From Saprospiraceae bacterium (GTDB lineage Bacteria; Bacteroidota; Bacteroidia; Chitinophagales; Saprospiraceae), in contig JALHLK010000031.1 in NCBI GenBank assembly GCA_022844565.1, positions 1 to 57,731 of the forward strand: 57,731 nt of DNA, written 5' to 3'. The position numbers were made by a program, and so were the translations under genes. How positions within the stretch are numbered: position 1 is the first letter of the stretch; the number at the start of each line of letters is the position of its first letter. The notes beneath the pieces are model-generated. The model was not told the origin of the DNA. It ran no database searches and was given only the letters and a program-made list of their open reading frames with translations. Of this stretch, positions 9,272 through 26,593 are shown piece after piece.

Positions 9272-10573
9272 TTGGAAGATAAAAATGATGGCTTAAAAAG
9301 AGAATTAGGCATTTTAGATGTTGCTACGAATGTTGTAAACATTGCCATTGGAAGTGGTATTTTCTTATTGCCAGCCCTTATTGCAGGTATTTTAGGAAAT
9401 GCTAGTATTGTTGCTTATGTCATTTGTGGCATCATTGTTTTACTGGTAGCATTGTGCTATGCCGAAATGGGTAGCCGAATCACTACATCAGGTGGTTCTT
9501 ATATATATATTGAAAAAGCTTTTGGACCCTATTTTGGATTTTTAGCATTCGGATTTTTACTTTTTGGTACGGGTATTCTTGTTTCGGCAGCATTAATCAA
9601 TGGCTTGGCTGATATGCTTTCTATTTCTTTTCCAATTTTTGAAACACCTATTTTTAGAGGATTATTGTTTTTTATTTTATTTAGTTTTTATGCTTTTGTA
9701 AATATTATTGGGGTGAAACAAGGCATGAAGGTCATCAAATTAGTAACTTTTGTAAAAATTCTACCGCTCGTCGCATTGGTAATCATCGGTGTTTTTAATG
9801 TACAATTTGCAAATCTACAATGGCATGGTTTTCCTACTTTTGAAAACATAGGTGCAGCTTCTTTGGCCTTGTTTTTTGCTTTTATCGGTGGAGAAACTGC
9901 CATAAATGTTAGTGGTGAAATGAAAAATCCAGCACGAACAGCACCTTTGGGATTGTTGCTGGGCATCATTACAGTCGTAGTCTTTTATTCATTAATTCAG
10001 CTTGTAACACAAGGATTATTGGGTGAAGAATTGATTGGTCAAAAGGCACCTTTGGCAGCTGCCGCGGGTAAACTATTTGGACCTTGGGGTACACAATTGT
10101 TGGTATTGTGCGGAGTTGTAGCCGTATTCAGTGGTTTAAATTCTATTGTCTTGGTTTATTCAAGAGTTATGTTTGCGGCATCAAATAATGGACTTTTACC
10201 TTCTGTTTTAGCAAAAGTACATGCCAAATTTGCAACTCCTCATTTGACAATTATCTCTTTTTCGTTGGTTGCCTTTGCAATGGCTTTATCGGGAGGGTTC
10301 AAACAATTAATGATATTGGCAACGATGTCGGGGTTATTTTTATATGTTGGTGTTGCATTAGCTGCAATCAAGTTTAGATTAGAAAAGGTAGAAAAATACC
10401 CTGCTTCGTTTAAGTTACCCGGCGGTATGTCGATTCCAATATTAACCTTGATCGTACTATCGTGGTTTATTTTGCAATCGAAACAAGAAAAAATTATTGG
10501 ATTCGGAATTTTTATTATAGTATTGTCTTTAATATTTTACATGAAGAAGTTTACTAGTGCTTTGTCAAAATAA
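9272..10573 (+). CDS. APC-family amino-acid permease
   Basis: A 433-residue integral membrane protein with about 12 hydrophobic segments. It carries the APC hallmark in TM1, Asn-Ile-Ala-Ile-Gly-Ser-Gly-Ile-Phe, where the unwound G-S-G-I-F binds the amino-acid carboxylate. A Gly-Gly-Glu-Thr-Ala motif in TM6 is also typical. No in-frame ATG exists before about residue 66, so the start is the TTG at 9272, 3 bases after the tricorn stop. This supports translational coupling. It probably imports amino acids freed by the preceding protease. The transport direction (uptake or exchange) cannot be read from the sequence. Confidence 0.9.
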   Translation: MEDKNDGLKRELGILDVATNVVNIAIGSGIFLLPALIAGILGNASIVAYVICGIIVLLVALCYAEMGSRITTSGGSYIYIEKAFGPYFGFLAFGFLLFGTGILVSAALINGLADMLSISFPIFETPIFRGLLFFILFSFYAFVNIIGVKQGMKVIKLVTFVKILPLVALVIIGVFNVQFANLQWHGFPTFENIGAASLALFFAFIGGETAINVSGEMKNPARTAPLGLLLGIITVVVFYSLIQLVTQGLLGEELIGQKAPLAAAAGKLFGPWGTQLLVLCGVVAVFSGLNSIVLVYSRVMFAASNNGLLPSVLAKVHAKFATPHLTIISFSLVAFAMALSGGFKQLMILATMSGLFLYVGVALAAIKFRLEKVEKYPASFKLPGGMSIPILTLIVLSWFILQSKQEKIIGFGIFIIVLSLIFYMKKFTSALSK

Positions 10574-10654
10574 AATGTGAGCTTTTCTATTTTTGCTCTA
10601 CGAATTTCTTTATAATGATTAAAATATGCATTTATTAAATCGAAATTAAATAAA

Positions 10655-11248
10655 ATGAGACAAGTATTTATCTTTAGCCTATTCATCTTCATAATAGCTT
10701 GCAAATCAGCTCAGAAAGAGGAGGTAATCCGTGAAATTGGACAAATTAAAACACCAATGGGTGAAATGTTATTCGAATTTTCGGACTTGACACCCAATCA
10801 TAAAGCCAGTTTTATCAAGTTGGCTAGCGAACACTATTGGGATACGCTCACCTTTAATCGAGTAATCAATGATTTTGTAATTCAAGGTGGATGTCCTGAT
10901 ACACCAGAAGGATTTGCAAACTCACCATATCTATTAGAGCCTGAATTTAATGATAGTCTTAAACATGTATATGGTGCAGTAGGTATAGGCAGAGATGGTA
11001 ATCCAGCTAAATTATCTGCAGGGTGCCAGTTTTACATTGTACACAAAAAAGAGGGACTGCCAAGACTGGATGGTGACTTTATGATCATAGGCCAAGTATT
11101 CAAAGGATTGGACGTATTGGATGCTATTGGAAAAGTTGCCACAGATACATTAGACAAGCCTTTGGTTCCCGTAACTTTAGAAGTGAATGTCTTAAAAATG
11201 AAGGAAGAGGAACTGATTAAAAACGGATATGTAATAACCAAATCTTAA
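10655..11248 (+). CDS. Lipoprotein cyclophilin-type peptidyl-prolyl isomerase
   Basis: A 197-residue protein with a lipoprotein signal: a hydrophobic stretch ending in I-I-A-C, acylated Cys16. The mature part is a cyclophilin domain with the conserved T-F-N-R-V-I-x-D-F-x-I-Q-G-G block (residues about 67-81, catalytic Arg included). A Gln-Phe-Tyr-Ile-Val segment follows later (near residue 126). The family catalyses cis-trans isomerisation of Xaa-Pro bonds and helps fold secreted proteins. It lies 81 bases after the permease and 36 before the penicillin acylase in the same direction, so it is plausibly part of the same transcript. Confidence 0.9.
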   Translation: MRQVFIFSLFIFIIACKSAQKEEVIREIGQIKTPMGEMLFEFSDLTPNHKASFIKLASEHYWDTLTFNRVINDFVIQGGCPDTPEGFANSPYLLEPEFNDSLKHVYGAVGIGRDGNPAKLSAGCQFYIVHKKEGLPRLDGDFMIIGQVFKGLDVLDAIGKVATDTLDKPLVPVTLEVNVLKMKEEELIKNGYVITKS

Positions 11249-11284: not shown

Positions 11285-13465
11285 ATGAAATTACTAATTT
11301 TCATTTTACTCCTTCCTGTGACCCTTTGCTCACAAGCCTTCACTAAAGAGGAAATAGCTCGATGGGAAAAACAAGCCAAGAAAGTTACCATTATGCGAGA
11401 TAATTACGGTATACCTCATATCTATGGCAAAACAGATGCTGACGCTGTATTTGGACTTTTGTATGCTCAATGCGAAGATGATTTTACACGTGTAGAGATG
11501 AATTATATTGAAAAATTGGGAAGAATGGCGGAGGTCAACGGACCAAGTGAGCTATACGATGACCTATTGATCAGGATGATCATAGACTCAGTCGACGCTG
11601 TGAAAGATTATGAAACCGCTCCAATCTGGATGAAAAAACTTTGTAATGCATTTGCAGATGGCGTAAACTACTATTTATATAAAAATCCTTCCAAAAAACC
11701 AGCACTCCTGACGCGTTTTAAACCTTGGTATCCTTTTTTATGGACAGACGGAAGCATTGGTGCGATTAATACAGCTGACATCAGTGTTGGAGAATTAAAA
11801 AATTTCTATACAGGCGAGCCTTCTTTTTCTTACCAAAAGGAAGAAAGTGAAGAAATACTAACTGGCTCTAACGGATTTGCTTTTGCACCCAAAATTACAG
11901 AAGCAGGTCACTCCATTTTATACATCAATCCACACGTCACCTTTTACTTTAGGCCGGAGGTCCATATGGTGAGCGAAGAAGGACTTAACGTATATGGTGC
12001 AGTGACATGGGGACAGTTTTTTATCTATCAGGGATTCAATGAAAAGTGTGGTTGGATTCATACCAGCAGTCAAGTAGATGCTGCAGACACCTATATCGAA
12101 AAGGTATCAAAAAAGGGAAAAAATTGGTTTTATGACTATGAAGGAAAACAAAAAAAAGTAAGTACAAAAAATATCACTATTCGCTCTAAAGCAGGAAATA
12201 AACTGGAGTCAACTACTATCCAAGCCTTATACACTCACCACGGACCGATTATGGCCAAAAGAGATGGTCAGTGGCTAAGTCTTAAAGCTGATAATCGGAT
12301 AAAAGATGGATTGATCCAATGCTGGCAAAGGACAAAAGCCCAAGGACTTGAGGATTTTAAAAAATCTTTGGACCTCAAAGGTAACATATCTAACAATACA
12401 GTCTATGCTGATGCTTCTGGAAATATTGGTTATTGGCATGGCAATAGAATTCCTATTCGCGATGCTAAATTTGATTGGACCAAGGCCGTGGACGGAAGTA
12501 TCGCTGCTACAGAATGGAAAGGATATCACGATATCAATCAGACTGTTTTAAGCATCAATCCTCCAAATGGCTGGCTTCAAAATTGTAACGCTACTCCTTA
12601 TACTGTGGCGGGAATAAATAGCCCCAAAGAAGAAAATTTTCCTGAATATATGGCCCCCGATGCAGAAAATTTCAGAGGGCTTAATGCCGTAAGAACGCTT
12701 AATGAGGAGAACAGCTATACTATTGACAAAGTTATCAAAGCGGGTTATGATACACGTATGACTTCATTCGAGATGATGGTACCTAAATTGGTTCAGTCAT
12801 TTGATCGACTATCCTACGACGACTCTCTTTTTAGTGTACTGGCCGGACCAATTATTGTATTAAAAAATTGGGATTTTAGAAGTGATCAAAACTCGATCGC
12901 AACCACACTTGCTATCGAATGGGGCGAAAAAATATTTCCAACGATAAGAAAATTGCAATTAAAAGATGTAAAGGATACTGACCTGACTGAGAAAACAAAA
13001 TATTATGCCTCCAATGCATCTGATAATGATTTACTAAACCCAATGCTTGATGTAGTAAAAAGCTTGCAGAAAAGATTTGGAAAATGGCAAATACCTTGGG
13101 GAGAGATCAACAGATTTCAGCGAATTTCTTCTGACCTTCAAAACAAATTTGATGATAATTTACCGAGTATTCCCGTAGGATTTACCTCGTCTGCATGGGG
13201 CACGTTACCTTCTTATACAAGCAGACCATTGGCAAATACTAAAAAAAGATATGGTGTCAACGGCAATAGTTTTGTATGTGCTGTAGAATTTGGTCCAAAA
13301 GTCAAAGCTAAATCATTACTCGCGGGAGGTAATAGTGGAAATGAGAAATCGCCACATTTTTTTGACCAAGGTGAGATGTATAGCAAAGGACAATTTAAAG
13401 ATGTACTTTTTTATAAAGAAGATGTTTTAAAACATGTAAAAAGGACCTATTTCCCAGGCGAATAA
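11285..13465 (+). CDS. Secreted penicillin-acylase-family Ntn hydrolase
   Basis: A 726-residue protein from the ATG at 11285, which opens a signal peptide; a TTG 15 bases upstream is an unlikely start. The family is shown by the N-terminal A-chain segment with R-D-N-Y-G-I-P-H-I-Y-G. Near residue 195 comes the autocleavage site T-G-S-N-G-F-A-F-A-P, where the Ser becomes the N-terminal nucleophile of the B chain. The oxyanion/substrate segments follow (NPHV, and later a G-N-S-G-N-E tail motif). These enzymes cleave amides such as acylated homoserine lactones, bile-salt-like amides or beta-lactam side chains, in the periplasm. The substrate cannot be predicted here. Neighbours are a cyclophilin and a serine hydrolase in the same direction (gap 10 bases). 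Confidence 0.9.
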   Translation: MKLLIFILLLPVTLCSQAFTKEEIARWEKQAKKVTIMRDNYGIPHIYGKTDADAVFGLLYAQCEDDFTRVEMNYIEKLGRMAEVNGPSELYDDLLIRMIIDSVDAVKDYETAPIWMKKLCNAFADGVNYYLYKNPSKKPALLTRFKPWYPFLWTDGSIGAINTADISVGELKNFYTGEPSFSYQKEESEEILTGSNGFAFAPKITEAGHSILYINPHVTFYFRPEVHMVSEEGLNVYGAVTWGQFFIYQGFNEKCGWIHTSSQVDAADTYIEKVSKKGKNWFYDYEGKQKKVSTKNITIRSKAGNKLESTTIQALYTHHGPIMAKRDGQWLSLKADNRIKDGLIQCWQRTKAQGLEDFKKSLDLKGNISNNTVYADASGNIGYWHGNRIPIRDAKFDWTKAVDGSIAATEWKGYHDINQTVLSINPPNGWLQNCNATPYTVAGINSPKEENFPEYMAPDAENFRGLNAVRTLNEENSYTIDKVIKAGYDTRMTSFEMMVPKLVQSFDRLSYDDSLFSVLAGPIIVLKNWDFRSDQNSIATTLAIEWGEKIFPTIRKLQLKDVKDTDLTEKTKYYASNASDNDLLNPMLDVVKSLQKRFGKWQIPWGEINRFQRISSDLQNKFDDNLPSIPVGFTSSAWGTLPSYTSRPLANTKKRYGVNGNSFVCAVEFGPKVKAKSLLAGGNSGNEKSPHFFDQGEMYSKGQFKDVLFYKEDVLKHVKRTYFPGE

Positions 13466-13475
13466 AACGAATAAT

Positions 13476-14627
13476 ATGAGGCAAATGAAAATAGTTATGA
13501 TCGCCTTTGTTCTTTTCCAGTTTTCTTTAATTGGACAAAAGGCCTACTTTCCTGATGAAACGTGGCTAAACAAAAAACCAGAAGAACTCGGCTTGAATAA
13601 AATGAGATTAGACAGTGCAATCATTGTCGCCAATCTCAATGAAGATGCAAGCGAGAAAGATTTGCGCATTGCTCTTCTCAAGTCTTACGCACGTGAACCA
13701 GGTTACAAAATCATTGGACCTACAAAACAGAGAGGCGGTCCCGCAGGTTTGATCATCAAAAACGGGTATATTGTTTCTCAATGGGGAGACATAGATCGTG
13801 TAGATATGACATTTAGCGCAACAAAAAGTTTTCTTTCCACGGTTGCAGGACTTGCATATGATAGAAAATTAATCCGTTCTGTCAAAGACCCTGTCAAAAA
13901 ATATGTTTGGGACGACAGTTTTGAGTCACAACACAATGCCAAGGTAACTTGGGAACATCTATTACACCAAACCTCAGATTGGTCAGGCACGCTCTTTGGA
14001 CTCAACGATTGGGCAGACAGACCACCAAGAGTAGGAGGTATAGACGAATGGAGCCGCAGAAAATTGGAAGAACCAGGCCAGATAAATGAATACAACGACG
14101 TGCGGGTAAACCTTCTCGCATATAGTCTGCTCAACGTATGGAGAAAACCTTTACCATCCGTGTTAAAAGAACACCTGATGGATCCTATAAAAGCTTCTAC
14201 TACGTGGAGATGGTACGGCTATGATAACGCTTTTATCAATATGGATGGCGTCATGGTACAATCTGTCAGCGGAGGAGGTCATCACGGTGGCGGGATCTTT
14301 ATGAGTACCACGGATATGGCCCGCTTTGGCCTATTATTCTTAAGAAATGGTAAATGGAATGATCAACAAATTATCTCAGATACTTGGATAAATATGGCTA
14401 CAGAACCTTCGACAGCTCTTAAAGATTATGGATACCTTTGGTGGTTGAATTCCACAAAAAAATGGAAAAACATTCCAAACAATGTCTTTTGGGCAGCAGG
14501 CTATGGAGGTAATTATATCATCGTAGATCGAGAAAATGATCTCGTGATTGTCTTAAGATGGGTAAATAATAAGGTAGAAGATGTGCTGGATCAGGTATAT
14601 TTGAGCTTAGGAGCTGTAAAGAAATAA
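13476..14627 (+). CDS. Secreted class C beta-lactamase-family serine hydrolase
   Basis: A 383-residue protein with a signal peptide (residues about 1-20). It carries the S-x-x-K motif S114-A-T-K117 in F-S-A-T-K-S-F-L. A Tyr-Asn-Asp motif near residues 206-208 is in the position of the YxN element, and a C-terminal H-H-G-G-G segment resembles the third motif. The length and order match the class C/DD-peptidase-like esterase family (PF00144). Enzymes of this family hydrolyse peptides, esters or beta-lactams, and the specificity here is open. It is the last of five closely spaced plus-strand genes and lies 10 bases after the penicillin acylase. Confidence 0.88.
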   Translation: MRQMKIVMIAFVLFQFSLIGQKAYFPDETWLNKKPEELGLNKMRLDSAIIVANLNEDASEKDLRIALLKSYAREPGYKIIGPTKQRGGPAGLIIKNGYIVSQWGDIDRVDMTFSATKSFLSTVAGLAYDRKLIRSVKDPVKKYVWDDSFESQHNAKVTWEHLLHQTSDWSGTLFGLNDWADRPPRVGGIDEWSRRKLEEPGQINEYNDVRVNLLAYSLLNVWRKPLPSVLKEHLMDPIKASTTWRWYGYDNAFINMDGVMVQSVSGGGHHGGGIFMSTTDMARFGLLFLRNGKWNDQQIISDTWINMATEPSTALKDYGYLWWLNSTKKWKNIPNNVFWAAGYGGNYIIVDRENDLVIVLRWVNNKVEDVLDQVYLSLGAVKK

Positions 14628-14668
14628 CATATCCATTTTGACTCGTTCTTTTATCATAGGTTTCAACA

Positions 14669-15511
14669 TTAATCGCTATTTATAAAATTATTAAATTCCG
14701 TCTTTGCAGTTTGACTTTCAAAAAGAGAAGTGTGTTCACCACCTACGATCTCGACAAACTGGCTATTCTGACAATTTTTACAACTTAAGACTTCTTGCTT
14801 AAAAGTTGGCCAAGAGTACATTTGAATAGGAGCGTCATTTAGACCTTGAATAAATAAAATTTTTGACTTGAAGCCATTCGTAAAGTTAAGTAATGACTTT
14901 TGAAAATATGCATTGGGGTTACTTGTTGTTGTGCCATATGCGTTTTTAAGTTTGTTACAGACAGCGCTTGTTTGAATTTGGCCATTCTCCTCTAATTGAC
15001 ATCTATAAACAAGGTTTAATGGTCCCGGTGCATTAGCAATTACACCATTGGTTTGGTGCATGGTATTAAGTCGTGTTACCATATAGCCTCCTTGAGAGTG
15101 TCCGCCTAAAAATACTTTTTTGATCGTTACTCCTAATTCTCGACTCGCTTTATTTTTCAACCATAACAAAGCAGCTTCAGCTAAAACAATATTGTCACCC
15201 AATAAAACATTTTCCTGAGGATATGCTACACTGACAATCATGATATCATTTCTATTCAAAATACCCTTGAATTTGTCAAGTGTGGTATTAGCGGCAGTCA
15301 TTATATTGCTGTCATTCATCACTGTGCCGTGAAATACCAACAAGACATCCATTTCATTATATGATGGCTTGTCAATGACAACATCAACGGTAAGATTATT
15401 ATACGTTATAGACTTTGTTAATCTATATGCAGTAGGCGTAGGCTGTTTTGTGGTGTTATCTTTGTCACACGAGTAAAAAAATAATGTCAGTAAAATCAAT
15501 AATCTCATCAA
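14669..15511 (-). CDS. Lipoprotein alpha/beta hydrolase
   Basis: A 280-residue protein with a lipoprotein signal (hydrophobic run ending F-Y-S-C, acylated Cys15). The mature part has the alpha/beta-hydrolase nucleophile elbow G-G-H-S-Q-G-G (Ser144), an oxyanion segment L-V-F-H-G-T near residue 78, and a His near the C-terminus in G-G-E-H-T that can complete the triad. A cysteine pair C-x-x-C near residue 245 is unusual. It is probably an esterase or lipase anchored to the outer or inner membrane. It converges on the preceding serine-hydrolase gene, with 41 bases between the two 3' ends and no obvious hairpin. Met2 could also be the start. Confidence 0.82.
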   Translation of the reverse strand: MMRLLILLTLFFYSCDKDNTTKQPTPTAYRLTKSITYNNLTVDVVIDKPSYNEMDVLLVFHGTVMNDSNIMTAANTTLDKFKGILNRNDIMIVSVAYPQENVLLGDNIVLAEAALLWLKNKASRELGVTIKKVFLGGHSQGGYMVTRLNTMHQTNGVIANAPGPLNLVYRCQLEENGQIQTSAVCNKLKNAYGTTTSNPNAYFQKSLLNFTNGFKSKILFIQGLNDAPIQMYSWPTFKQEVLSCKNCQNSQFVEIVGGEHTSLFESQTAKTEFNNFINSD

Positions 15512-15702
15512 AATAAGTTTGTAACTTTCCTTAGACTGGACTTATTATTAAATGTTTAAAACATGTTGGACAAAGGTACTAGAAAAACTATGCAATTGTT
15601 GACCACAAAGCATCAATTTTCAATTTTACCAATGTTGATATCTATCCGACGTAGTAAACGAGGCCGATTCCGATTCCAAAGGTAAATGATTTTTCTATTT
15701 TT

Positions 15703-16779
15703 TTAGTTCGTCCAAGGTTCTTTGTCTCGCGCATCCACGAATTTATCACCATCAAAAATGCATAAACCTTGCCAAGTACCAAACCACATTTGCCCTTTGT
15801 TATCCTCAAATATACTTAAAACATTGTTGGTAGTTAATCCGTCTTTCGTAGTGTATAAAGTAAATTTTGTACCATCATATTTATAAACTCCTATATTCTC
15901 AGCGGTAAACCATATATTTCCCTTACTATCTTCATAAAAACCGCCAGTTTCTATGCCTTGTATAATGCCATCTTTTGTGAAATTTGTGAAAGTGGTGCCA
16001 TCAAACTTACTTGCACCTCCATAAAATGAGCTAATCCAAATATTTCCTTGTTTATCCTCTAGTAAGGCATGAGTATTATTGTCGGTAAGTCCATTTTTGG
16101 TTGTTAAATGAGTAAACACTCCGTTTTTGTATTTGAAAATTCCATTTCCATCGGTAGTTAGCCAGATCGTTCCAGCTTTATCTTCTAGAATTTTAAAAAC
16201 CAATTTGTCAGACATCATATGCTGCCGATTTTCAACCAATGAATTTGGCAATGAAAACGGTTTAAACTTCTCTCCGTCAAAATGACTAACTCCACCAATC
16301 GAGCCTACCCAAAAGAGTCCATTTTTGTCAATTGTTAAGCCCCAAATTTCCGGATCTTCACCAAGCAGTCCTTCTTTGAATGAAAATGTTCTAAACTTCA
16401 CACCATCGTATTTAATAAGTCCAGCAGAGGTTCCAAACCATATATTGCCATCATGGTCTTCTATAATTGATGTAACTCGCTCATGTGGATGAATACCTTC
16501 GATTGGTACTGTTTCAAGTGTTTGTCCATTGTACCTGATAATTCCATTCCCATTAGTCCCAAACCAATAATTCCCTTTTTTGTCTTGATACATTGACCTT
16601 ACAAACTCTCTGACCATTCCATTCAAATTGGTATGAATTTGTGGAAAGGTCGTGTTTTGATTAAAAATAAGTGGTTGACGTTGTAAAGCTACATTCTCAG
16701 ATGTAGATTTAGTATTGACTTGTCCGAAACAAAGTGAGGTTTGAAGGATGAAAATGAGGAGTAATGTGTATTTTGGCAT
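15703..16779 (-). CDS. Secreted two-component-regulator-type beta-propeller protein
   Basis: A 358-residue protein when started at the ATG at 16779, which opens a signal peptide. An upstream in-frame ATG at 16815 would add 12 unneeded residues. The mature part is made of seven or so short repeats with pattern [D/N]-x-x-G-x-[I/L]-W-[F/V]-G-[T/S] followed by a Tyr-Asp-Gly-x-x-F element. These are the Reg_prop repeats normally seen in the periplasmic sensor half of hybrid two-component systems in Bacteroidota. Here the protein ends after the propeller: there is no Y_Y_Y domain, transmembrane helix, histidine kinase or DNA-binding domain. It is a free propeller protein, either a binding protein or a partial remnant. 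Confidence 0.85.
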   Translation of the reverse strand: MPKYTLLLIFILQTSLCFGQVNTKSTSENVALQRQPLIFNQNTTFPQIHTNLNGMVREFVRSMYQDKKGNYWFGTNGNGIIRYNGQTLETVPIEGIHPHERVTSIIEDHDGNIWFGTSAGLIKYDGVKFRTFSFKEGLLGEDPEIWGLTIDKNGLFWVGSIGGVSHFDGEKFKPFSLPNSLVENRQHMMSDKLVFKILEDKAGTIWLTTDGNGIFKYKNGVFTHLTTKNGLTDNNTHALLEDKQGNIWISSFYGGASKFDGTTFTNFTKDGIIQGIETGGFYEDSKGNIWFTAENIGVYKYDGTKFTLYTTKDGLTTNNVLSIFEDNKGQMWFGTWQGLCIFDGDKFVDARDKEPWTN

Positions 16780-20144: not shown

Positions 20145-20179
20145 TTTTTATACTATAATTCAAATAAAATGTGGCATTG

Positions 20180-20187
20180 CAAATATA
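20180..20187 (-). promoter_or_regulatory. -7 box of the GH140 promoter within a repeated segment
   Basis: On the minus strand this reads TATATTTG, matching the Bacteroidota -7 box TAnnTTTG, about 36 bases before the GH140 start. The box lies in a segment that is similar to two others at 21738-21855 and 24547-24660. A TTG for the -33 element exists but at 14 bases, shorter than the usual 19 or so. Confidence 0.45.
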
Positions 20188-20301
20188 ACGAATCCTTCTT
20201 CCAAGTGAAGTATATATTAAATTATTTGAGTGTGACCAAAGTGTTAAGTCAAAATCATTCCTTAATCTGGGTTAAAGTTAGATTGGTAGTGTAACCAATT
20301 T

Positions 20302-20762: not shown

Positions 20763-21590
20763 TTAGTCTTTTTCGATTGATGTTTCCCAACCATCATAAT
20801 CTCCGTTGCATTCATTTGCCAATTTCCACAAATAAATTACATAATCATCAACACTATTATGATCAACTTTGTCCACTCGTTTAATTTGTAAGGTATACGG
20901 CATTTCACCTAACTCCTTATCATAATCTTTGTCAATAATGCTAAATCTATCATTTGATATTCTTTTTAAGAAAGTTTCTCTGTCCTTTTCTGTTTTAAAG
21001 TATATCCAATGATCAACTTCTCTTTCTTTAGTTAGTTTGTCTCCGTGTTTTTCAAGATTGTCTATGACACGTCTATTTTGAATACTTTGATATTGTTCAG
21101 GTGTTGGATAGAGAAAGTCAAAATAACCAGTCCATTCTTTGTCTTCATTTGATCCGAAGTCAAATTGATATTTTGGATATGCAACCATTACTTCTGAAAT
21201 TGTCTTGTCGTAAAGTATTGTGTCACCAAAATAAAAATACAAATCTCTATCGCCTGCCGATGTAAGTCGTCCAACGTAAATAGAGTTGTGTTTAGAAATG
21301 ATTTTTTCAACCAAAGCATCTTCGATATCGCCAAGCAATTCACTTTCTTCTTGTGATGAAAGTCCGTCTTCTCTCGGCTTATTCATTTTAATTGACACCC
21401 AAACAACATTTGGCTTGTCAGTCATTGGTGCAACTTTGTGTAGTCCAAGGTCAACAAACAGCGAACCTAACTTATCGTTTACGTTACTGAAATAAAACTC
21501 CCATTCTTCTTGGTGTCCTGCATCTTTGGCAGAAGTTGTTGTCTGTTGGCCAGGATTTGTCTTGCCAAATAATTTATCAAAAAGCCCCAT
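20763..21590 (-). CDS. DUF695 protein with C-terminal RraB-like domain
   Basis: A 275-residue protein from the ATG at 21590. This start gives the usual Met-Gly-Leu-Phe-Asp-Lys-Leu-Phe-Gly-Lys opening of such proteins. A further upstream ATG (21647) would add a hydrophobic segment that looks like read-through of non-coding DNA. The first part (about residues 20-150) is a DUF695 domain with W-E-F-Y-F-S and the pair V-W-V-S-I-K-M. The second (about 180-275) resembles the RraB family: H-W-I-Y-F-K-T near its start and L-A-N-E-C-N-G-D-Y-D-G-W-E-T at its end. RraB relatives inhibit RNase E in E. coli; the role here is unknown. It is cytoplasmic. Confidence 0.82.
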   Translation of the reverse strand: MGLFDKLFGKTNPGQQTTTSAKDAGHQEEWEFYFSNVNDKLGSLFVDLGLHKVAPMTDKPNVVWVSIKMNKPREDGLSSQEESELLGDIEDALVEKIISKHNSIYVGRLTSAGDRDLYFYFGDTILYDKTISEVMVAYPKYQFDFGSNEDKEWTGYFDFLYPTPEQYQSIQNRRVIDNLEKHGDKLTKEREVDHWIYFKTEKDRETFLKRISNDRFSIIDKDYDKELGEMPYTLQIKRVDKVDHNSVDDYVIYLWKLANECNGDYDGWETSIEKD

Positions 21591-22214
21591 TTTATAAGTT
21601 GTTGTTATTGCAAAAAATGTTATTCCAATTAATATTATATTCTTCAATGTCTTTAACTTAGGTTTTAAATTTGGGTTTGCTTTTATATAGAAAAAATATA
21701 GCCAATTTTATTGATTTACCACCTCTACTTATCTCAATTAGCTATGACAAACATAAGGAATCTTCTTATCAACAAAAATATTTTATAAATTATCTTTCGA
21801 GTGGGAGGGGTGGGCTAAATCTTGATTACTCTATAACTTACCGAACTAATACCATCAAGGTTGTTGTAATTGGTGGGTTTGACAGAACGTTCGGAATTTT
21901 CGATTTTTCTCATTGATAAGTGACGGTCAAGTTCTTGTTCCAAATAAATATTTAATATATCGTCTTGGATGGTTAATCGTAATTCGTTCTTAAAAATTCT
22001 GCCACCCGTTAAATCATTGTCCAGCGAGTTGTATACCATCAACTAAACTCAACTCCATTATTCATATATTTCTATTATTATATGTTTGCTTCCTAAATTA
22101 TACGCATTAAACTTATTCGGAATCTTTACCGTTTCTGTCAATTTAGTAAAACATGTCCGTCTAAATATATGTCCACCAATTGATTGGCGGTTTAGTTGAA
22201 AATCGATATTAGCA
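21591..22214. other. Gene-free stretch, with repeat copy and a possible relic ORF
   Basis: No gene can be supported here. At 21738-21855 is one of three copies of a diverged AT-rich repeat that carries a TAnnTTTG box on the minus strand (CAAACATA on plus, 21748-21755). On the minus strand, two open frames (about 75 and 50 codons, around 21815-22042 and 22058-22215) do not resemble a family I know and could be remains of a gene. The downstream attC expected for the SnoaL-like cassette was not found here. Confidence 0.4.
21738..21855 (-). repeat. Diverged promoter-bearing repeat, copy 2
   Basis: Similar by eye to 24547-24660 over about 115 bases. Both contain TAGCTAT followed by a minus-strand -7 box (TATGTTTG here), then AAGGAATCTTCTT, GAGTGGGA and TACCGAA-TAAT. 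The start of the repeat is also shared with 20172-20232, in front of the GH140 gene. It lies about 150 bases before the DUF695 start. Confidence 0.6.
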
Positions 22215-22649
22215 TCACTTATGTAAGGCAACAAATAACTCAGCCTGCAATTTCCACTCACCGTCTTTTTTCTTCCACTGTGCGCTATAACGTCCACCGC
22301 TACTGTAGGTGTTAAATCCTTTCCATTCTCCACTTTCCCAAGCTAGGTCTGGATTGTTTTTACTTATTATAATTTCTGAGGGAAAGCGTTCAAATTTAGT
22401 TTGTGGCGTTTCCTTAAAAATTTTCATCCAATTTGCTTTATTAGCTTCTTTACCTTGTTCAATTACACCACTCCCACGGATAACAACATAATCATCTAGC
22501 CAGAATTTAGAAAATCCTTCTACGTCTTGTCGGGCAATAGCTTCATTGGAAGTTTTGCGTGCACTGCGAATTAAATCTTCATCGCTTCTAACCTGAGCGA
22601 ACACAGATTGAAATGACATTAAAAGGACTGTTAGCAAGATTATTTTCAT
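22215..22649 (-). CDS. Secreted SnoaL/DUF4440-like protein
   Basis: A 144-residue protein with a signal peptide (residues 1-18, Val-Phe-Ala-Gln). The mature part shows the DUF4440 pattern: an amphipathic helix with an A-x-x-x-x-D-V-E-G-F-S-K-F-W start, then strands ending W-K-x-x-x-G-E-W-K-L-Q-A-E. It is related in fold to the protein at 5380-5889 but distinct in sequence. It is the gene following attC-like element 22797-22884 on the minus strand, so it would be the next cassette of the array, although no downstream attC could be recognised. Its function is unknown. Confidence 0.78.
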   Translation of the reverse strand: MKIILLTVLLMSFQSVFAQVRSDEDLIRSARKTSNEAIARQDVEGFSKFWLDDYVVIRGSGVIEQGKEANKANWMKIFKETPQTKFERFPSEIIISKNNPDLAWESGEWKGFNTYSSGGRYSAQWKKKDGEWKLQAELFVALHK

Positions 22650-22796
22650 ATATTGTATTTATTCTTCCTTGTCGTGACAATATTGTCCTAAACGCCTAGA
22701 AATATATTCCTTCGCTGGCAGTAAATTATATTTTATTGTATTGTTACCTAAATTTTATCAATTAGTCCGTCACTTTTCCGTCTGTTAACGACTTGT

Positions 22797-22884
22797 ACCC
22801 AACGTTTTGCTTACTGCCGTGCCGCCGTGCGTGGGGTTTATGGGATGGCTGTTCGGTGGTATGGACAGCAAGCCATTGTTCGCT
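22797..22884 (-). other. attC-like recombination site 1 (88 bp imperfect palindrome)
   Basis: On the minus strand the site starts with AGCGAAC (22884-22878) and ends with GTTGGGT (22803-22797); the latter fits the attC R-prime consensus GTTRRRY. The inner arms pair as an imperfect 18-base stem with G-U-type substitutions and a bulge (about 22809-22827 with 22852-22871). AGCGAAC is the exact reverse complement of GTTCGCT at the end of the upstream site (23695-23701), as integron cassettes require. Confidence 0.7.
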
Positions 22885-22896
22885 TTTCGTCTTCTT

Positions 22897-23673
22897 TCAT
22901 TTTTTCTTTTTAATTATTTCAGCAATTTCAGAGTGTTTGAATCTTGTTGCATAATCCAACGGAGTATCTCCATTCTTATCTTTTTGATTTATGTCAACTA
23001 ACCTTTTTTCCACTAAATATTGTGCAACATCCTTTAAATCATCTTTAGCAGCAAAATGTAAAAGATTTCTTCCATTGTTACAGGTTTGATTGATTTCAAA
23101 CCCATTTCCTACAAGAAGCTTTAACATTTCGACACTTTTTACACCGTGGATTGGAAGACATCCCATATTTCTATTCCTATCTCTCTGTATTCGGTCAGCA
23201 CCTTTATTAATGATGAATTCGGTTAATTTCAAATTATCAAATGAAATAGCATATGACAAAAATGAATCGTTGTCCTCGTCTGCTCCATTTATATTTGCTC
23301 CTTTGCTTAAAAGTAATTCTGCCAACTTTACTCCATTTTCTTTGCAATATGCCAAATTTGTAATTACATCATCGACTTCATCGCATTTAAAATTTACATC
23401 TGCCCCTTCTTTTATTAATTGATTCACCAATTCTTCATCACATTCATCTGTTGCCAAACAAAGCAAATGATTCTTTGTAACTTCTTCAACATCAAAATCT
23501 TTAACATCAAGTTCATATTTAGAGACATTGATTCCGTCGAATGAAACCAAAATTCCGTTTTGTACTACTACATTGTTTTTCGAGGGTTCTGCTTTTGTAT
23601 TCGAATTGCTTTTCTGTGCTTCGGACGAACAACCTATCATCAAGAATGTCAAAATTGCCAGCAGATTTTTCAT
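22897..23673 (-). CDS. Ankyrin-repeat lipoprotein in an integron-like cassette
   Basis: A 258-residue protein with a lipoprotein signal (I-G-C-S lipobox, Cys15). It is followed by ankyrin repeats (about residues 75-255) of the type D-x-x-G-x-T-P-L-x-x-A near the end (N-G-D-T-P-L-D-Y-A), with L-L-S-K-G-A-N-I-N-G-A-D and similar helical turns. The protein is probably anchored at the periplasmic face or exported outward; ankyrin domains bind other proteins. It is bounded by attC-like sites whose seven-base ends match exactly, so it is one gene cassette. It stands alone, and its function is unknown. Confidence 0.85.
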   Translation of the reverse strand: MKNLLAILTFLMIGCSSEAQKSNSNTKAEPSKNNVVVQNGILVSFDGINVSKYELDVKDFDVEEVTKNHLLCLATDECDEELVNQLIKEGADVNFKCDEVDDVITNLAYCKENGVKLAELLLSKGANINGADEDNDSFLSYAISFDNLKLTEFIINKGADRIQRDRNRNMGCLPIHGVKSVEMLKLLVGNGFEINQTCNNGRNLLHFAAKDDLKDVAQYLVEKRLVDINQKDKNGDTPLDYATRFKHSEIAEIIKKKK

Positions 23674-23694
23674 TGTTTTATCTTTTTTTGTTGA

Positions 23695-23760
23695 AGCGAA
23701 CGTCCAAGGCTATGTGACGGCTGCCTGATAAGGCAGATGGCATCATAGCCAATGTTCTCG
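23695..23760 (-). other. attC-like recombination site 2 (66 bp imperfect palindrome)
   Basis: On the minus strand the site starts with CGAGAAC (23760-23754) and ends with GTTCGCT (23701-23695). The two inner arms GGCTATG and CATAGCC pair perfectly, with a second helix CTGCC/GGCAG closer to the loop. The CGAGAAC end is the exact reverse complement of GTTCTCG found where the next cassette begins (24307-24313 on plus: CGAGAAC). GTTCGCT is the partner of the next site. The spacing is normal for an attC. Confidence 0.7.
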
Positions 23761-23768
23761 GTTCGTTT

Positions 23769-24278
23769 TTAATTTACCAATGCTCTATCGCCTTCAATTC
23801 CTTTTTCCACTCTTTCTTCGTATCCTTTAAAATAGAAAGGAATGTTATCTTCTTGCCCGTTTTCAAGTCGCATTTTAACTTTGTCGAAAGCAATAATTGA
23901 AATCTCAAATTTTGGTTGACCTGTTACAAGAATTGGTTGGTTTAATTGTTCATACCAAAAATATTTACCGCCAAAATTTCGACGAGCCACTTCAAAAATA
24001 TATCCACCTGCTTGTCCAATTAAATCACTCATCATTTCTTCATCAATTTCGTCTTTGTTTTGATGGAACTGTTCAAGTAGTTCGTCAAGAACCTTCAGAC
24101 TATTAACACTAAAATCTAACGTTCCACCTAGTGCTTCATTGTATGCTTCTACAATCCGTTCAGCATTGCCTGACATATCCTTGATGAATTGCTTTTGAGA
24201 TTCATCTATTTGATTTGACTCAGATTGCGGAATGTCTTCTTGTTTATTTTTGTTTTTAAAAAAATTAAAAAATCCCAT
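23769..24278 (-). CDS. Uncharacterised cassette protein
   Basis: A 169-residue soluble protein beginning Met-Gly-Phe-Phe-Asn-Phe-Phe-Lys, with a lysine-, glutamine- and glutamate-rich opening (residues 9-30). The rest is helical, then a strand-rich end with G-G-K-Y-F-W-Y and V-T-G-Q-P-K-F-E-I-S. The Met-Gly-aromatic-Lys start resembles the DUF695-type and other small Bacteroidota cytoplasmic proteins, but the body matches no family I know. It may be an immunity-like or other accessory protein; that is a guess. It lies in one integron-like cassette that begins with GTTCTCG at 24313 and ends in attC-like site 2. Confidence 0.7.
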   Translation of the reverse strand: MGFFNFFKNKNKQEDIPQSESNQIDESQKQFIKDMSGNAERIVEAYNEALGGTLDFSVNSLKVLDELLEQFHQNKDEIDEEMMSDLIGQAGGYIFEVARRNFGGKYFWYEQLNQPILVTGQPKFEISIIAFDKVKMRLENGQEDNIPFYFKGYEERVEKGIEGDRALVN

Positions 24279-24661
24279 GTTATACTTTATTTAAATTTAT
24301 AATGATCGAGAACATCCGCTATACGCCATACCAATTCCTTATATTTCTAATATGACTTCATTCCCATTTTACACAAATTATGTAAATTCAATACTTTAAA
24401 TTCTTATTACTACCTAAAAACGCTACTATCTTCCATCTTCATTTTTATCCGATTTAAAATGTTAATTTACGTTTATAAAACGGATATGATTTTATGATGA
24501 GATTATGTAGTCAATTTTAATACTTTAATAAATCTATCTATTGTATTTAGCTATTGCAAATATAAGGAATCTTCTTTTCAATAGAAATTTTTTATAATAT
24601 ATTTTAGAGTGGGAAGGTTGTGGCAAAATTAGTTTGCCCTATAGCCTACCGAAATAATAAT
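24279..24661. other. Region upstream of the cassettes: half attC and repeat copy 3
   Basis: On the minus strand, GTTCTCG (24313-24307) opens the first cassette. It is preceded by GGCGTATAGCGGAT, which resembles the 3' half of an attC; the 5' half is not visible. Further upstream, at 24547-24660, is a diverged repeat whose minus-strand -7 box (TATATTTG at 24557-24564) points into the cassette array. No gene is seen in between. Confidence 0.55.
24547..24660 (-). repeat. Diverged promoter-bearing repeat, copy 3
   Basis: It resembles 21738-21855 along its length and the start of 20172-20232. It contains the minus-strand box TATATTTG (24557-24564), which fits the Bacteroidota -7 consensus, and it abuts the older MITE copy at 24662. 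It lies about 245 bases in front of the first cassette boundary and may serve as the promoter feeding the cassettes. Confidence 0.55.
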
Positions 24662-24948
24662 CCCGGATTCGGCATTAAAAATTAACTGGAAGAGAATACC
24701 TAACTTACAGTTGCAATAGCTGTGACGGGGCGCCACAATTTAAGACTAAATTGTCTTGCGGTCAATTTTTAAAGTCTTTCATGTCCTTCATGCAGCTAGG
24801 GCTGAAAATGTTGAATGCGGTGAAATCCAATTGGTCCAAGTTCGTAACTAAATTGATATTTCGAGATATCCATTTTTTACGCTACTCATACACTTCACTA
24901 CCATTTTGCCTAATTTCCTTTCGAATTTATTCCAATCTGAAATCGGGG
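24662..24948. mobile_element. MITE-like element, older copy (A)
   Basis: The left end CCCGGATTCGGCATT (24662-24676) and a right end near 24934-24948 correspond to the terminal repeats of copy B (26594-26831), which is inverted relative to this one. The interiors align for most of the length, for example the segment ending GCCTAATTTCCTTTCGAAT. The copy is more diverged and about 50 bases longer than B. It ends within about 6 bases of the Gfo/Idh/MocA stop codon. The flanking bases ATAAT and ATTAT may be a decayed target duplication. Confidence 0.7.
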
Positions 24949-24953
24949 ATTAT

Positions 24954-26303
24954 CTATACTGTATACGGATGAACCCAAGGTGCTCTATACTTTCTCATCA
25001 ATTTTTGAGTTGCAACTTCATCGTCTATCACGATTTTTTTAGTTGGGTCATATACGAGGGGTCTTCCGAGTTCCATCGCATTGTTGGCCAATATGCAGCT
25101 AGCAGTAGATATATGGCTATCTTGGATTGACGCCACGGGAGTTGTATTTTCTTCTATAGATTTCAATAAATTTTTGAATTGACCTCTTGTCGCCGGTGCA
25201 GTGTGCAATTCTATTCTATCTTCTTTTAGATCGGCAGGAAATTCTGTTTTTTCATACAAAACATCGTACCGGATAGCCTTTTTTGCCTTATCTGTTGGGA
25301 CAAAATCACATTTTATCGTGCTGACTTTGAGGGTACCATGCTCACCATAGATAAACAATGCCCATGGATATTCTGGGTCGGGTGAAGTGCCCCAAGTACG
25401 ATGTGTCCATACGCATTGTAACTGTTCGTGCTCAAAAACAGCGGTTTGTGTATCCGATATATTTGCATTGGCAGATTTTTGGACCAATATGCCTCCTGTT
25501 GAAGATATTTTGCTAGGCCAACCTAAATCCAATAACCATCGCGCAGTATCATACATGTGCACACACATATCACCCACGATACCGTTGCCAAACTCCTTAA
25601 AAGCCCTCCATCCGATGCCGTCATACGATTTAAGAGGAGCTGGACCACAATACAAATCCCAATCGATATGGTCTGGTATTGGTTGGGGGTCCATTTTTCG
25701 TTGATCTCTCATATGATAGTAGCAGCACATTTCTACATGGCTCACCTTTCCTAACATTCCTCCTTCTATCACCTCCTTTTTAGCTTGTAAAATGTGAGGA
25801 GTACTCCTTCGTTGAAGGCCAACTTGTATTTTTCTTCCCGTACGTTCAGTTATTTTGACGATGACCTCCCCTTCCAAAACATCAACGGAGATTGGTTTTT
25901 GTAAATATACGTGCGCTCCGGCTTGCATTGCTGCAATGGCCATCAATGCATGCCAATGGTCAGGAGTTCCTATGATTACGACGTCTAGTTGGTGTTCGGC
26001 CAGCAGTTTTCTATAGTCTGTGTATTGGCGAGGTTCATTCGTATTTCCTCGATCTTTTACCAATTTAGCCGCCTCAGCTAAAGCCTTTTTATTTACATCA
26101 CAAAGTGCTACAACATCGCACGGTACCACTTGCATCATCTTAAACAAGTCACTTTTACCGTACCAACCCGTGCCAATTAAAGCTACTCGATATTTTTTAG
26201 AAAGATCAAATCCCCCACCAGGAATGCTACTAAAAGGCAAAAAGGTGAGTGCTGTTAAGCTCGTTTGGAGAAATTGGCGTCTATGTAAATTTGTGGTACT
26301 CAT
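24954..26303 (-). CDS. Gfo/Idh/MocA-family oxidoreductase with Tat-like leader
   Basis: A 449-residue protein starting with a twin-arginine-type leader (H-R-R-Q-F-L-Q-T, then a hydrophobic stretch to about residue 28). The Rossmann motif follows, V-A-L-I-G-T-G-W-Y-G-K, with the conserved E-K-P/Q-K-P-I-S-like segment (Q-K-P-I-S, near residue 136) that binds nicotinamide. The C-terminal half holds the mixed sheet of GFO_IDH_MocA_C (H-M-Y-D-T-A-R-W-L around residue 244). These enzymes act on sugars or sugar derivatives; Tat-exported members in Bacteroidota are common and of diverse substrate. It sits alone. The stop is almost touched by a MITE-like copy. Confidence 0.9.
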   Translation of the reverse strand: MSTTNLHRRQFLQTSLTALTFLPFSSIPGGGFDLSKKYRVALIGTGWYGKSDLFKMMQVVPCDVVALCDVNKKALAEAAKLVKDRGNTNEPRQYTDYRKLLAEHQLDVVIIGTPDHWHALMAIAAMQAGAHVYLQKPISVDVLEGEVIVKITERTGRKIQVGLQRRSTPHILQAKKEVIEGGMLGKVSHVEMCCYYHMRDQRKMDPQPIPDHIDWDLYCGPAPLKSYDGIGWRAFKEFGNGIVGDMCVHMYDTARWLLDLGWPSKISSTGGILVQKSANANISDTQTAVFEHEQLQCVWTHRTWGTSPDPEYPWALFIYGEHGTLKVSTIKCDFVPTDKAKKAIRYDVLYEKTEFPADLKEDRIELHTAPATRGQFKNLLKSIEENTTPVASIQDSHISTASCILANNAMELGRPLVYDPTKKIVIDDEVATQKLMRKYRAPWVHPYTV

Positions 26304-26593
26304 GACTTGAAATTTTAAGCTGATGACAAATTTAGTATTTTTATAGAACTTTGAAGGAATCTATTTTATTACGTGTGAATAACATATTGCACTTCTGAAA
26401 ATATGGCCATTGTTTTACCTCAACCATAAAAGAAGCCATAGGCCATATTTTAAAATGTTTTTGATTTGGTTTTCCCTTTCAAAGGAGTTAGTGGGTAAAA
26501 TCAATAACATTTTTGTGCAATATGCTATACACACTTTTATAGCTATAGTAGCCGCTTTGTAAATTTCATCTTTTGCTGTGGAATCAACTTTAC
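26304..26593. other. Gene-free stretch with foldback element 26373-26534
   Basis: No gene is supported here. A 79-codon open frame on the minus strand (26415-26654) overlaps the foldback element and the MITE copy and resembles no family. It is treated as non-coding. Confidence 0.6.
26373..26534. mobile_element. Foldback element with 20-bp terminal inverted repeats
   Basis: The ends 26373-26392 and 26515-26534 are inverted repeats of 20 bases with two mismatches (core CATATTGCAC). Inside, 26398-26408 and 26441-26451 form a perfect 11-bp inverted repeat (AAAATATGGCC). No second copy was found in this window, and no target duplication is obvious. It could be a MITE of another family or a structured non-coding DNA. 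Confidence 0.6.

Follow-up and report, generated by a model that had tools for sequence, protein, structure and literature searches.

Two small, unrelated genes lie side by side on the minus strand of the 57,731-nucleotide (nt) stretch of the Saprospiraceae bacterium contig JALHLK010000031.1 (hereafter the window), each of them between imperfect palindromes, and the question raised by this locus is what kind of element placed them there. The original prediction described a remnant integron-like gene-cassette array without an integrase, and the coordinates and letters that it gave for genes and sites on the minus strand are confirmed here. We consider it likely that the window holds two integron cassettes inserted at an integrase-less attI-like site, and that they belong to a Bacteroidota type of integron whose tyrosine recombinase would lack the additional domain of IntI and carry one or more N-terminal HARP-like modules. 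This reading is carried by tandem cassettes that pair with their own R'' boxes, by covarying hairpins, by an attI located 3' of the recombinase gene, by two plasmids that diverge at the crossover and by several copies of attI in one genome. Loci, genomes and the contigs of the window's own genome are designated below by L, G and C numbers, respectively, the window being contig C31.

Cassette 1 (23702..24313, minus strand) starts with GTTCTCG at 24313 and contains a gene for a 169-residue protein (23769-24278) with a weak match to DUF6278 (PF19794, E 0.00019, below cutoff); its attC-like site (site 1, 23695..23760) opens with CGAGAAC at 23760-23754, which gives a pairing of 7 nt with the cassette start. 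Cassette 2 (22804..23701, minus strand) starts with GTTCGCT at 23701 and encodes a 258-residue ankyrin-repeat protein (22897-23673; Ank_2, E 2.7e-25), which also matches the candidate defence family PADLOC PDC-M72A at E 1.3e-22, over part of the model only. The site of cassette 2 (site 2, 22797..22884), which is of an 80-nt class with imperfect arms, opens with AGCGAAC at 22884-22878. Both start/R'' pairs are exact, as had been proposed, and the pairing of cassette 2 extends to 8 nt rather than 7. These pairs had also been held to be hard to get by chance, a claim that stands when arm quality is taken into account: across window positions 21000-26500, linked head-to-tail cassettes with exact 7-mer pairing and arms as good as those observed arose in 1 of 300 dinucleotide shuffles, versus 112 of 300 for a linked pair regardless of arm quality, with length limits that were chosen after the sites had been seen. 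Thus, 7-mer pairing alone is weak evidence, and pairing combined with arm complementarity is strong. Site 1 folds well as a single strand, the bottom strand reaching -15.7 kcal/mol (z -4.1 against shuffles) and the top strand being weaker (z -2.1). Site 2 aligns to two 80-nt sites of L148 with scores of 59.5 and 65.5, versus maxima of 52.5 and 55 in 300 shuffles each. A scan of the window against Rfam gave no match at or above a gathering score.

Sites of this kind are common among relatives. A covariance model, R1, was built from ten sites, window site 1 included; it matches site 1 at 50.8 bits, a score obtained on one of its own training sites, and it does not match site 2. R1 matches (E up to 0.01) were found in 147 of the 298 sampled genomes of the window's family; at the stricter limit of 1e-4, and in a sample of 395 genomes drawn from the phylum, 13 had a match, one of them being the window's own genome. 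The covariance-model hit on which the original prediction had made its reading depend thus exists for such sites. A strict pattern, AACAATGN{33,62}TGGACGTT, matched 49/298 family genomes and none of the contigs of the own genome, and only two of its matches, both in G246, looked like true palindromes by eye. In a 64-row alignment of the sites (62 distinct rows), 95.4% of cells are paired, compared to 66.6% after shuffling and at most 33% after sliding, and doubly changed cells number 267 versus 82.8 in shuffles; the alignment was fitted to the covariance model, which biases these figures in its favor. One unpaired column of the R''-L'' arm holds A in 57 of the 60 rows having a letter there, which resembles the extrahelical bases described for attC in the consulted part of PMC2727003. 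Of eight sites for which both strands were folded, seven were lower in energy as the bottom strand, as in IntI integrons: the two window sites, with site 2 at shuffle level, and all but one of the six others; the exception is the last site of L082, and at the L050 site neither strand rises above shuffles (z 0 and -1.4).

Imperfect palindromes that recur in many genomes could also be unrelated repeats, of the repetitive extragenic palindromic (REP) or miniature inverted-repeat transposable element (MITE) type, which flank genes by chance. The topology of pairing speaks against such repeats, as does the lack of a second copy of site 2 in the own genome by BLAST. When at least 6 of the 7 outer bases were required to pair, 24 of 37 consecutive same-strand site pairs satisfied the cassette rule, in which a start pairs with the distal site, compared to 32 of 3874 unrelated control pairs; the two ends of one and the same site paired in only 1 of 64. 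These counts rest on 64 of the 71 R1 matches (those at L050, L127, L113, L129:2134 and L132:514 and both at L152 were left out) and include one mis-anchored L121 row. Thirteen of the 37 consecutive pairs break the rule, and some of these have longer sites, unmodelled by R1, between them (e.g., L129 and L132).

A second argument against chance repeats is that homology stops exactly at GTT, both around cassette 1 and in the Chryseobacterium plasmids described below. Relatives of the cassette 1 protein occur in a Flavobacterium metagenome-assembled genome (MAG) (L049, 93% identical), in Candidatus Parvibacillus calidus (L050, 89%) and in a Bacillota-labelled MAG (L051, 89%). Between window and L049, 571 of 612 columns are identical from GTT to GTT, and the 100-nt flanks on each side fall to about 46%. 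The cassette that follows differs in L049, and in L050 and L051 the attC-like site itself differs; cassette 1 has other neighbors outside the window. Pairing topology and boundary tests together lead us to reject REP or MITE repeats, to which we assign a negligible probability, and the boundaries of cassette 1 in L049, the pairing rule and the covariation support the reading as an integron-like cassette array.

Other genomes of the family hold many more cassettes whose ends match. For example, L049 contains five tandem start/R'' pairs of 9-10 nt, and L082 (genome G246) contains a chain of six cassettes in which five links are of 9-10 nt and one is of 7 nt. The cargo consists of accessory genes: outside the window, a cassette of about 4.95 kb (L082:6114-11065) has a type III restriction-modification pair, methyltransferase and restriction gene, between matching ends, and PDC-S31 and an ATPase resembling AriA and PtuA are found as well. 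Searches of plasmid DNA with L049 and the window stretch gave no match, and searches of viral contigs with both cassette proteins and the integrase of contig C15 (see below) found no relative. The oxidoreductase gene that flanks the window array is one of many paralogues, its best match in a congener being 35% identical, and no empty site could be read in the five congeners.

The element preceding cassette 1, which had been taken for a half-site, is real, and is better described as an attI-like docking site (24311..24350, minus strand) with its crossover at GTT (24313). Its sequence, GGCGTATAGCGGAT^GTT, matches the attI of contig C15, and the core GCGTATAGCN{2,3}ATGTT has four exact matches in the genome, on C2, C6, C15 and C31, all four of which stand at array starts; the reversed pattern, used as a control, has none, and the core has no match in five congeners. 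On C15 (= L133), the sole platform seen with an open integrase gene in this genome, 59 nt separate the first base of the integrase stop codon from the array start. Contig C33 has a more diverged attI copy with a cassette and retains, before that attI, two 27-residue integrase pieces that are 78% and 81% identical to C15; C58 has a partial attI copy with a cassette; and C2 retains, by eye, about nine of the last integrase codons. On C31 and C6, a shared leader stands in place of an integrase remnant. We read these docking sites as platforms at various stages of integrase loss, which would have been duplicated and then have lost the integrase gene, and the C15 integrase may act in trans on the integrase-less platforms, the window included.

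The leader lies upstream of cassette 1 (24300..24640, minus strand), and about 300 nt of it are 68% identical to C6:148108-148399, a segment whose end is the start of the leading cassette in another array. It contains TATATTTGC at 24564-24556, which we take to be a promoter-like element of the Bacteroidetes type, and from which the cassettes may be read; a sigma-70 scan of the leader gave nothing above shuffles. At the other end of the array, the right flank (22785..22803, minus strand) starts with GTTGGGTACAAG... and is presumably the right half of the original attI. From its start at 22803, no R'' pairing of at least 7 nt was found within the searched stretch, 150-2500 nt further on.

These platforms bear on the status of the array. 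Clusters of attC sites lacking integron integrases (CALIN) are defined by the features that the window offers, namely two attC-like sites with no recombinase open reading frame (ORF) nearby, and a search across all 57.7 kb found none. The comparison with CALIN had been made in the original prediction and holds to this extent; what sets the window array apart from a plain CALIN is its start at an attI-like site of which the genome has other copies, one adjoining an integrase. The description as a remnant without an integrase is correct for the window itself, and the remnant may be an array served in trans, since an integrase with a matching attI is present on C15. A dead CALIN, i.e., orphan cassettes that are no longer mobile, would differ from the explanation preferred here only in present activity and is compatible with it. 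The missing recombinase ORF, the poor folding of site 2 and the start/R'' pairing of cassette 1, which is 7 nt here versus 9 nt in L049, all favor immobility, whereas an attI with the same core heads the array and the genome also has an open integrase gene next to such an attI, which argues for continued service; we regard loss of mobility as a possibility of some weight, if the lesser one.

The recombinase found beside such arrays is not an ordinary IntI. Arrays follow the recombinase gene at L117, L116, L119 and L148, starting 17, 34, 39 and 155 nt, respectively, from the first base of the stop codon, and in these stop-adjacent arrays and that of C15 the first R'' pairing is of 9-10 nt; at L118, L147, L136 and L137 the cassettes lie further downstream. 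In a sample that was chosen by recombinase first (18 recombinases from 17 of 20 loci, leaving out L134 and L152, transposon recombinases by eye, and L149, at a contig end), a strong cassette was present on the 3' side in 5 of the 12 whose downstream sequence reaches 800 nt or more. Most of the genomes are drafts, and several contigs stop soon after the recombinase; 6 more members of the sample lie within 300 nt of a contig end. Upstream, 1 of the 18 had a cassette match, a weak one.

In alignment A2, the 24 non-IntI recombinases lack the additional domain that is present in the IntI of L029 and share the N-terminal consensus W....K.W.IP, and HARP-like modules were assigned to their N-termini by motif. 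Pfam HARP (PF07443) matches L117 above its cutoff (35.4 vs. 25 bits), with L116 and L136 under it, and the C15 integrase has no match to this model. Against the IntI model TIGR02249 (cutoff 265 bits), the four array-associated recombinases tested score 178-206 bits; their best NCBIfam match is NF040815 (193-217 bits, cutoff 220), and in the PDB the C15 integrase matches the XerC-like 4a8e best, followed by IntI4 2a3v. They resemble XerA, XerC and XerD in these best matches and differ from them in their linkage to cassette arrays and attI, in an extra N-terminal part and in an IntI-like SPLD tail. A quick tree, in which the Xer group ended with one row, separated the 21 IntI from these recombinases by a branch with SH-aLRT 93. 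When viral contigs were searched with alignment A2, among the best 80 of 566 tyrosine recombinases, 9 of which were entered in the tree, L197 groups with IntI.

Conventional integrons provide the second rival, in which canonical cassettes were moved here by an ordinary IntI from elsewhere and the recombinase adjoining the arrays is a bystander. The likenesses are considerable, since the architecture of the attC sites and the cassette starts resemble those of IntI arrays: class 1 integrons and the Vibrio superintegron share with the arrays described here tandem cassettes, attC hairpins, GTT/AAC cores, start/R'' pairing mostly of 7-10 nt, an attI near the integrase and a recombinase ending in YTH...SPLD.L. 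IntI is also present over cutoff in 105 of the 395 genomes sampled across the phylum, and single R1 matches occur in IntI-bearing genomes such as G545 and G615. In the relatives of the window, however, IntI exceeds the cutoff in only 1 of 198 genomes (own, genus, family and order), the own genome having none, yet the sites are found in about half of the sampled family; the one IntI-bearing relative, G032, has no R1 match, and all listed IntI genomes except G032 lie outside the class of the window, sharing only its phylum.

The recombinase and the position of the array separate the two systems further. Apart from lacking the additional domain and having HARP-like modules by motif, the recombinases described here have their arrays, where these are seen, 3' of the gene, whereas 13 of the 16 chains of at least two cassettes found at 20 IntI loci of the phylum lie 5' of intI (4 of the 20 loci gave no chain); the other three, short chains at L270, L273 and L274, lie 3', and pairing alone gives no array direction. 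At L270 (G560:C1:153046-153990), a true IntI has its two-cassette chain directly downstream, unlike most IntI loci examined. The departure of one window site from GTTRRRY, to which the original prediction drew attention, is real and means little: canonical IntI arrays, taken from 10 of the 20 IntI loci, match this consensus at 11 of 65 starts, versus 3 of 51 in the arrays described here (18 chosen loci, starts pairing over at least 8 nt only), and GTTRRRY forms the R' box in 6 of our 64 sites. It was dropped as a distinguishing mark, since the control arrays depart likewise.

Named plasmids and several genomes place an attI and an array directly after a non-IntI recombinase. In Pontibacter kalidii pls1 (L169), six linked cassettes come after such a recombinase, and the same finder gave no comparable chain on its upstream side. 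The Chryseobacterium plasmids L167 and L168 share the recombinase and the attI region to ATATAAACAAG^TT, after which identity falls to about 40%; their homology runs through the stop codon to ...AAACAAG^TT, so that divergence begins exactly at the predicted crossover. The attI of L117 ends in the same core, ATATAAACAAGTT, and L167 has linked cassettes after its attI. R1 matched nothing in L167, L168 or L169, and because the L169 sites escape it, R1 covers only part of the diversity of sites. The divergence of two plasmids at the attI of a non-IntI recombinase, the arrays directly after such recombinases and the scarcity of IntI among relatives make the import of cassettes by an ordinary IntI improbable.

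Several observations weigh against a Bacteroidota integron type run by the array-associated recombinase. Seven of the 12 recombinases whose downstream sequence reaches 800 nt or more show no strong cassette in it, over stretches of up to 6 kb, and recombinases with arrays are spread over the tree (9 changes for 12 rows), so that membership of the recombinase family does not predict an array. Pfam HARP is matched (E up to 0.1) by only 4 of the 25 aligned recombinases. L168, in spite of its shared attI, has no linked cassettes that are separable from the controls of the finder. In the window, the folding of site 2 lies at shuffle level on either strand (z about +1), which makes it doubtful as an intact site, and no integrase remnant was found upstream of the attI, so that descent of this copy from a full integron is conjectural. 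The own genome is a draft of 102 contigs in which C15 ends after one cassette. R1 matches at E up to 1e-3 fall on ten of its contigs, one on each; of eight further regions examined, convincing cassettes were present only at C33 and C58, those on C3, C25, C63, C24 and C11 and the second on C7 having none, and no cassette start matching the first C7 site was found. Finally, that recombination is carried out by this recombinase is something that we infer, the evidence being wholly computational.

Taken with these reservations, the Bacteroidota integron type remains the explanation we favor. Its recombinase would cut attC at G^TT, on the folded bottom strand, and insert circular cassettes at attI, with the N-terminal module perhaps helping it to grip the hairpin. 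A broader proposal, about which our confidence is close to evenly divided and leans slightly to the negative, is that Bacteroidia hold a second, independently evolved class of integrons, in which HARP-module recombinases act on folded attC sites and, in some genomes, one integrase serves dispersed attI platforms with decayed integrases, shuffling small genes, those for restriction-modification and other defence functions included, between chromosomal loci.

In the consulted text of PMC9668308, integron integrases are defined by an IntI with the additional domain, which is held to be necessary for integron recombination, and the relevant part of PMC2426708 likewise selects IntI by this domain. 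If a recombinase without it runs these arrays, the domain is not required for the reaction. Bacteroidota are among the phyla listed with integrons in the excerpted section of PMC8618304, and the portion of the IntegronFinder 2.0 report that was available (PMC9024848) gives one complete integron for Bacteroidetes proper, in Salinibacter ruber. Given the frequency of R1 matches in the family, a large cassette pool may have been missed if the present reading is true. A partial view of PMC8138268 shows that the IntI insertion is incompletely conserved within an integron-like subgroup of tyrosine recombinases; relatives of the recombinases described here may already be inside this subgroup, for which HARP-like modules and such cassette arrays are not mentioned in that part of the paper. 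Within the open PMC literature (which excludes bioRxiv and holds few subscription journals), we recognized no description of such arrays. They offer a test bed for how a tyrosine recombinase comes to use single-stranded hairpins, and for the origin of CALIN by integrase loss, of which one genome seems to show several stages.

A few minor observations accompany these results. Part of the leader is repeated in the window at 21653-21820 (or 21653-21796), before a DUF695/RraB gene (73%, E 5e-19), and weakly at 20176-20234, before an apiosidase gene (E 0.04), which probably reflects a shared promoter type. On C7, an xerD-like recombinase adjoins a site; the preceding sequence is only loosely attI-like, and we read the gene as a chance neighbor. 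The single R1 matches mentioned above, at G545:C3:382821 and G615:C19:33109, lie in genomes where a true IntI is found on a different contig, which hints at an overlap of two cassette pools. At L152, two R1 matches stand on the strand opposite its recombinase. An attC-like site at L118:8777-8833 overlaps the start of the integrase ORF, and cassettes may lie on both sides of that integrase. At L119:2189-3684, two overlapping frames separately encode the HARP-like part (assigned by motif, Pfam giving no match) and the recombinase part. In a Parvibacillus-type genome, two 218-residue recombinase ORFs with equal scores and tails and SPLD ends (L128:5634-6290 and 12628-13284) are set amid site-like palindromes. 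Residues 147-381 of the C15 integrase are about 51% identical to tyrosine recombinases of Acinetobacter plasmids and of one uncultured record (annotated TnpF). Among mobile elements, IS110 transposases and group II introns are known to target attC sites; the L167 array (12266-16431) contains an IS110 transposase and a group II intron, and the L169 array (9577-10932) contains an IS110 transposase.

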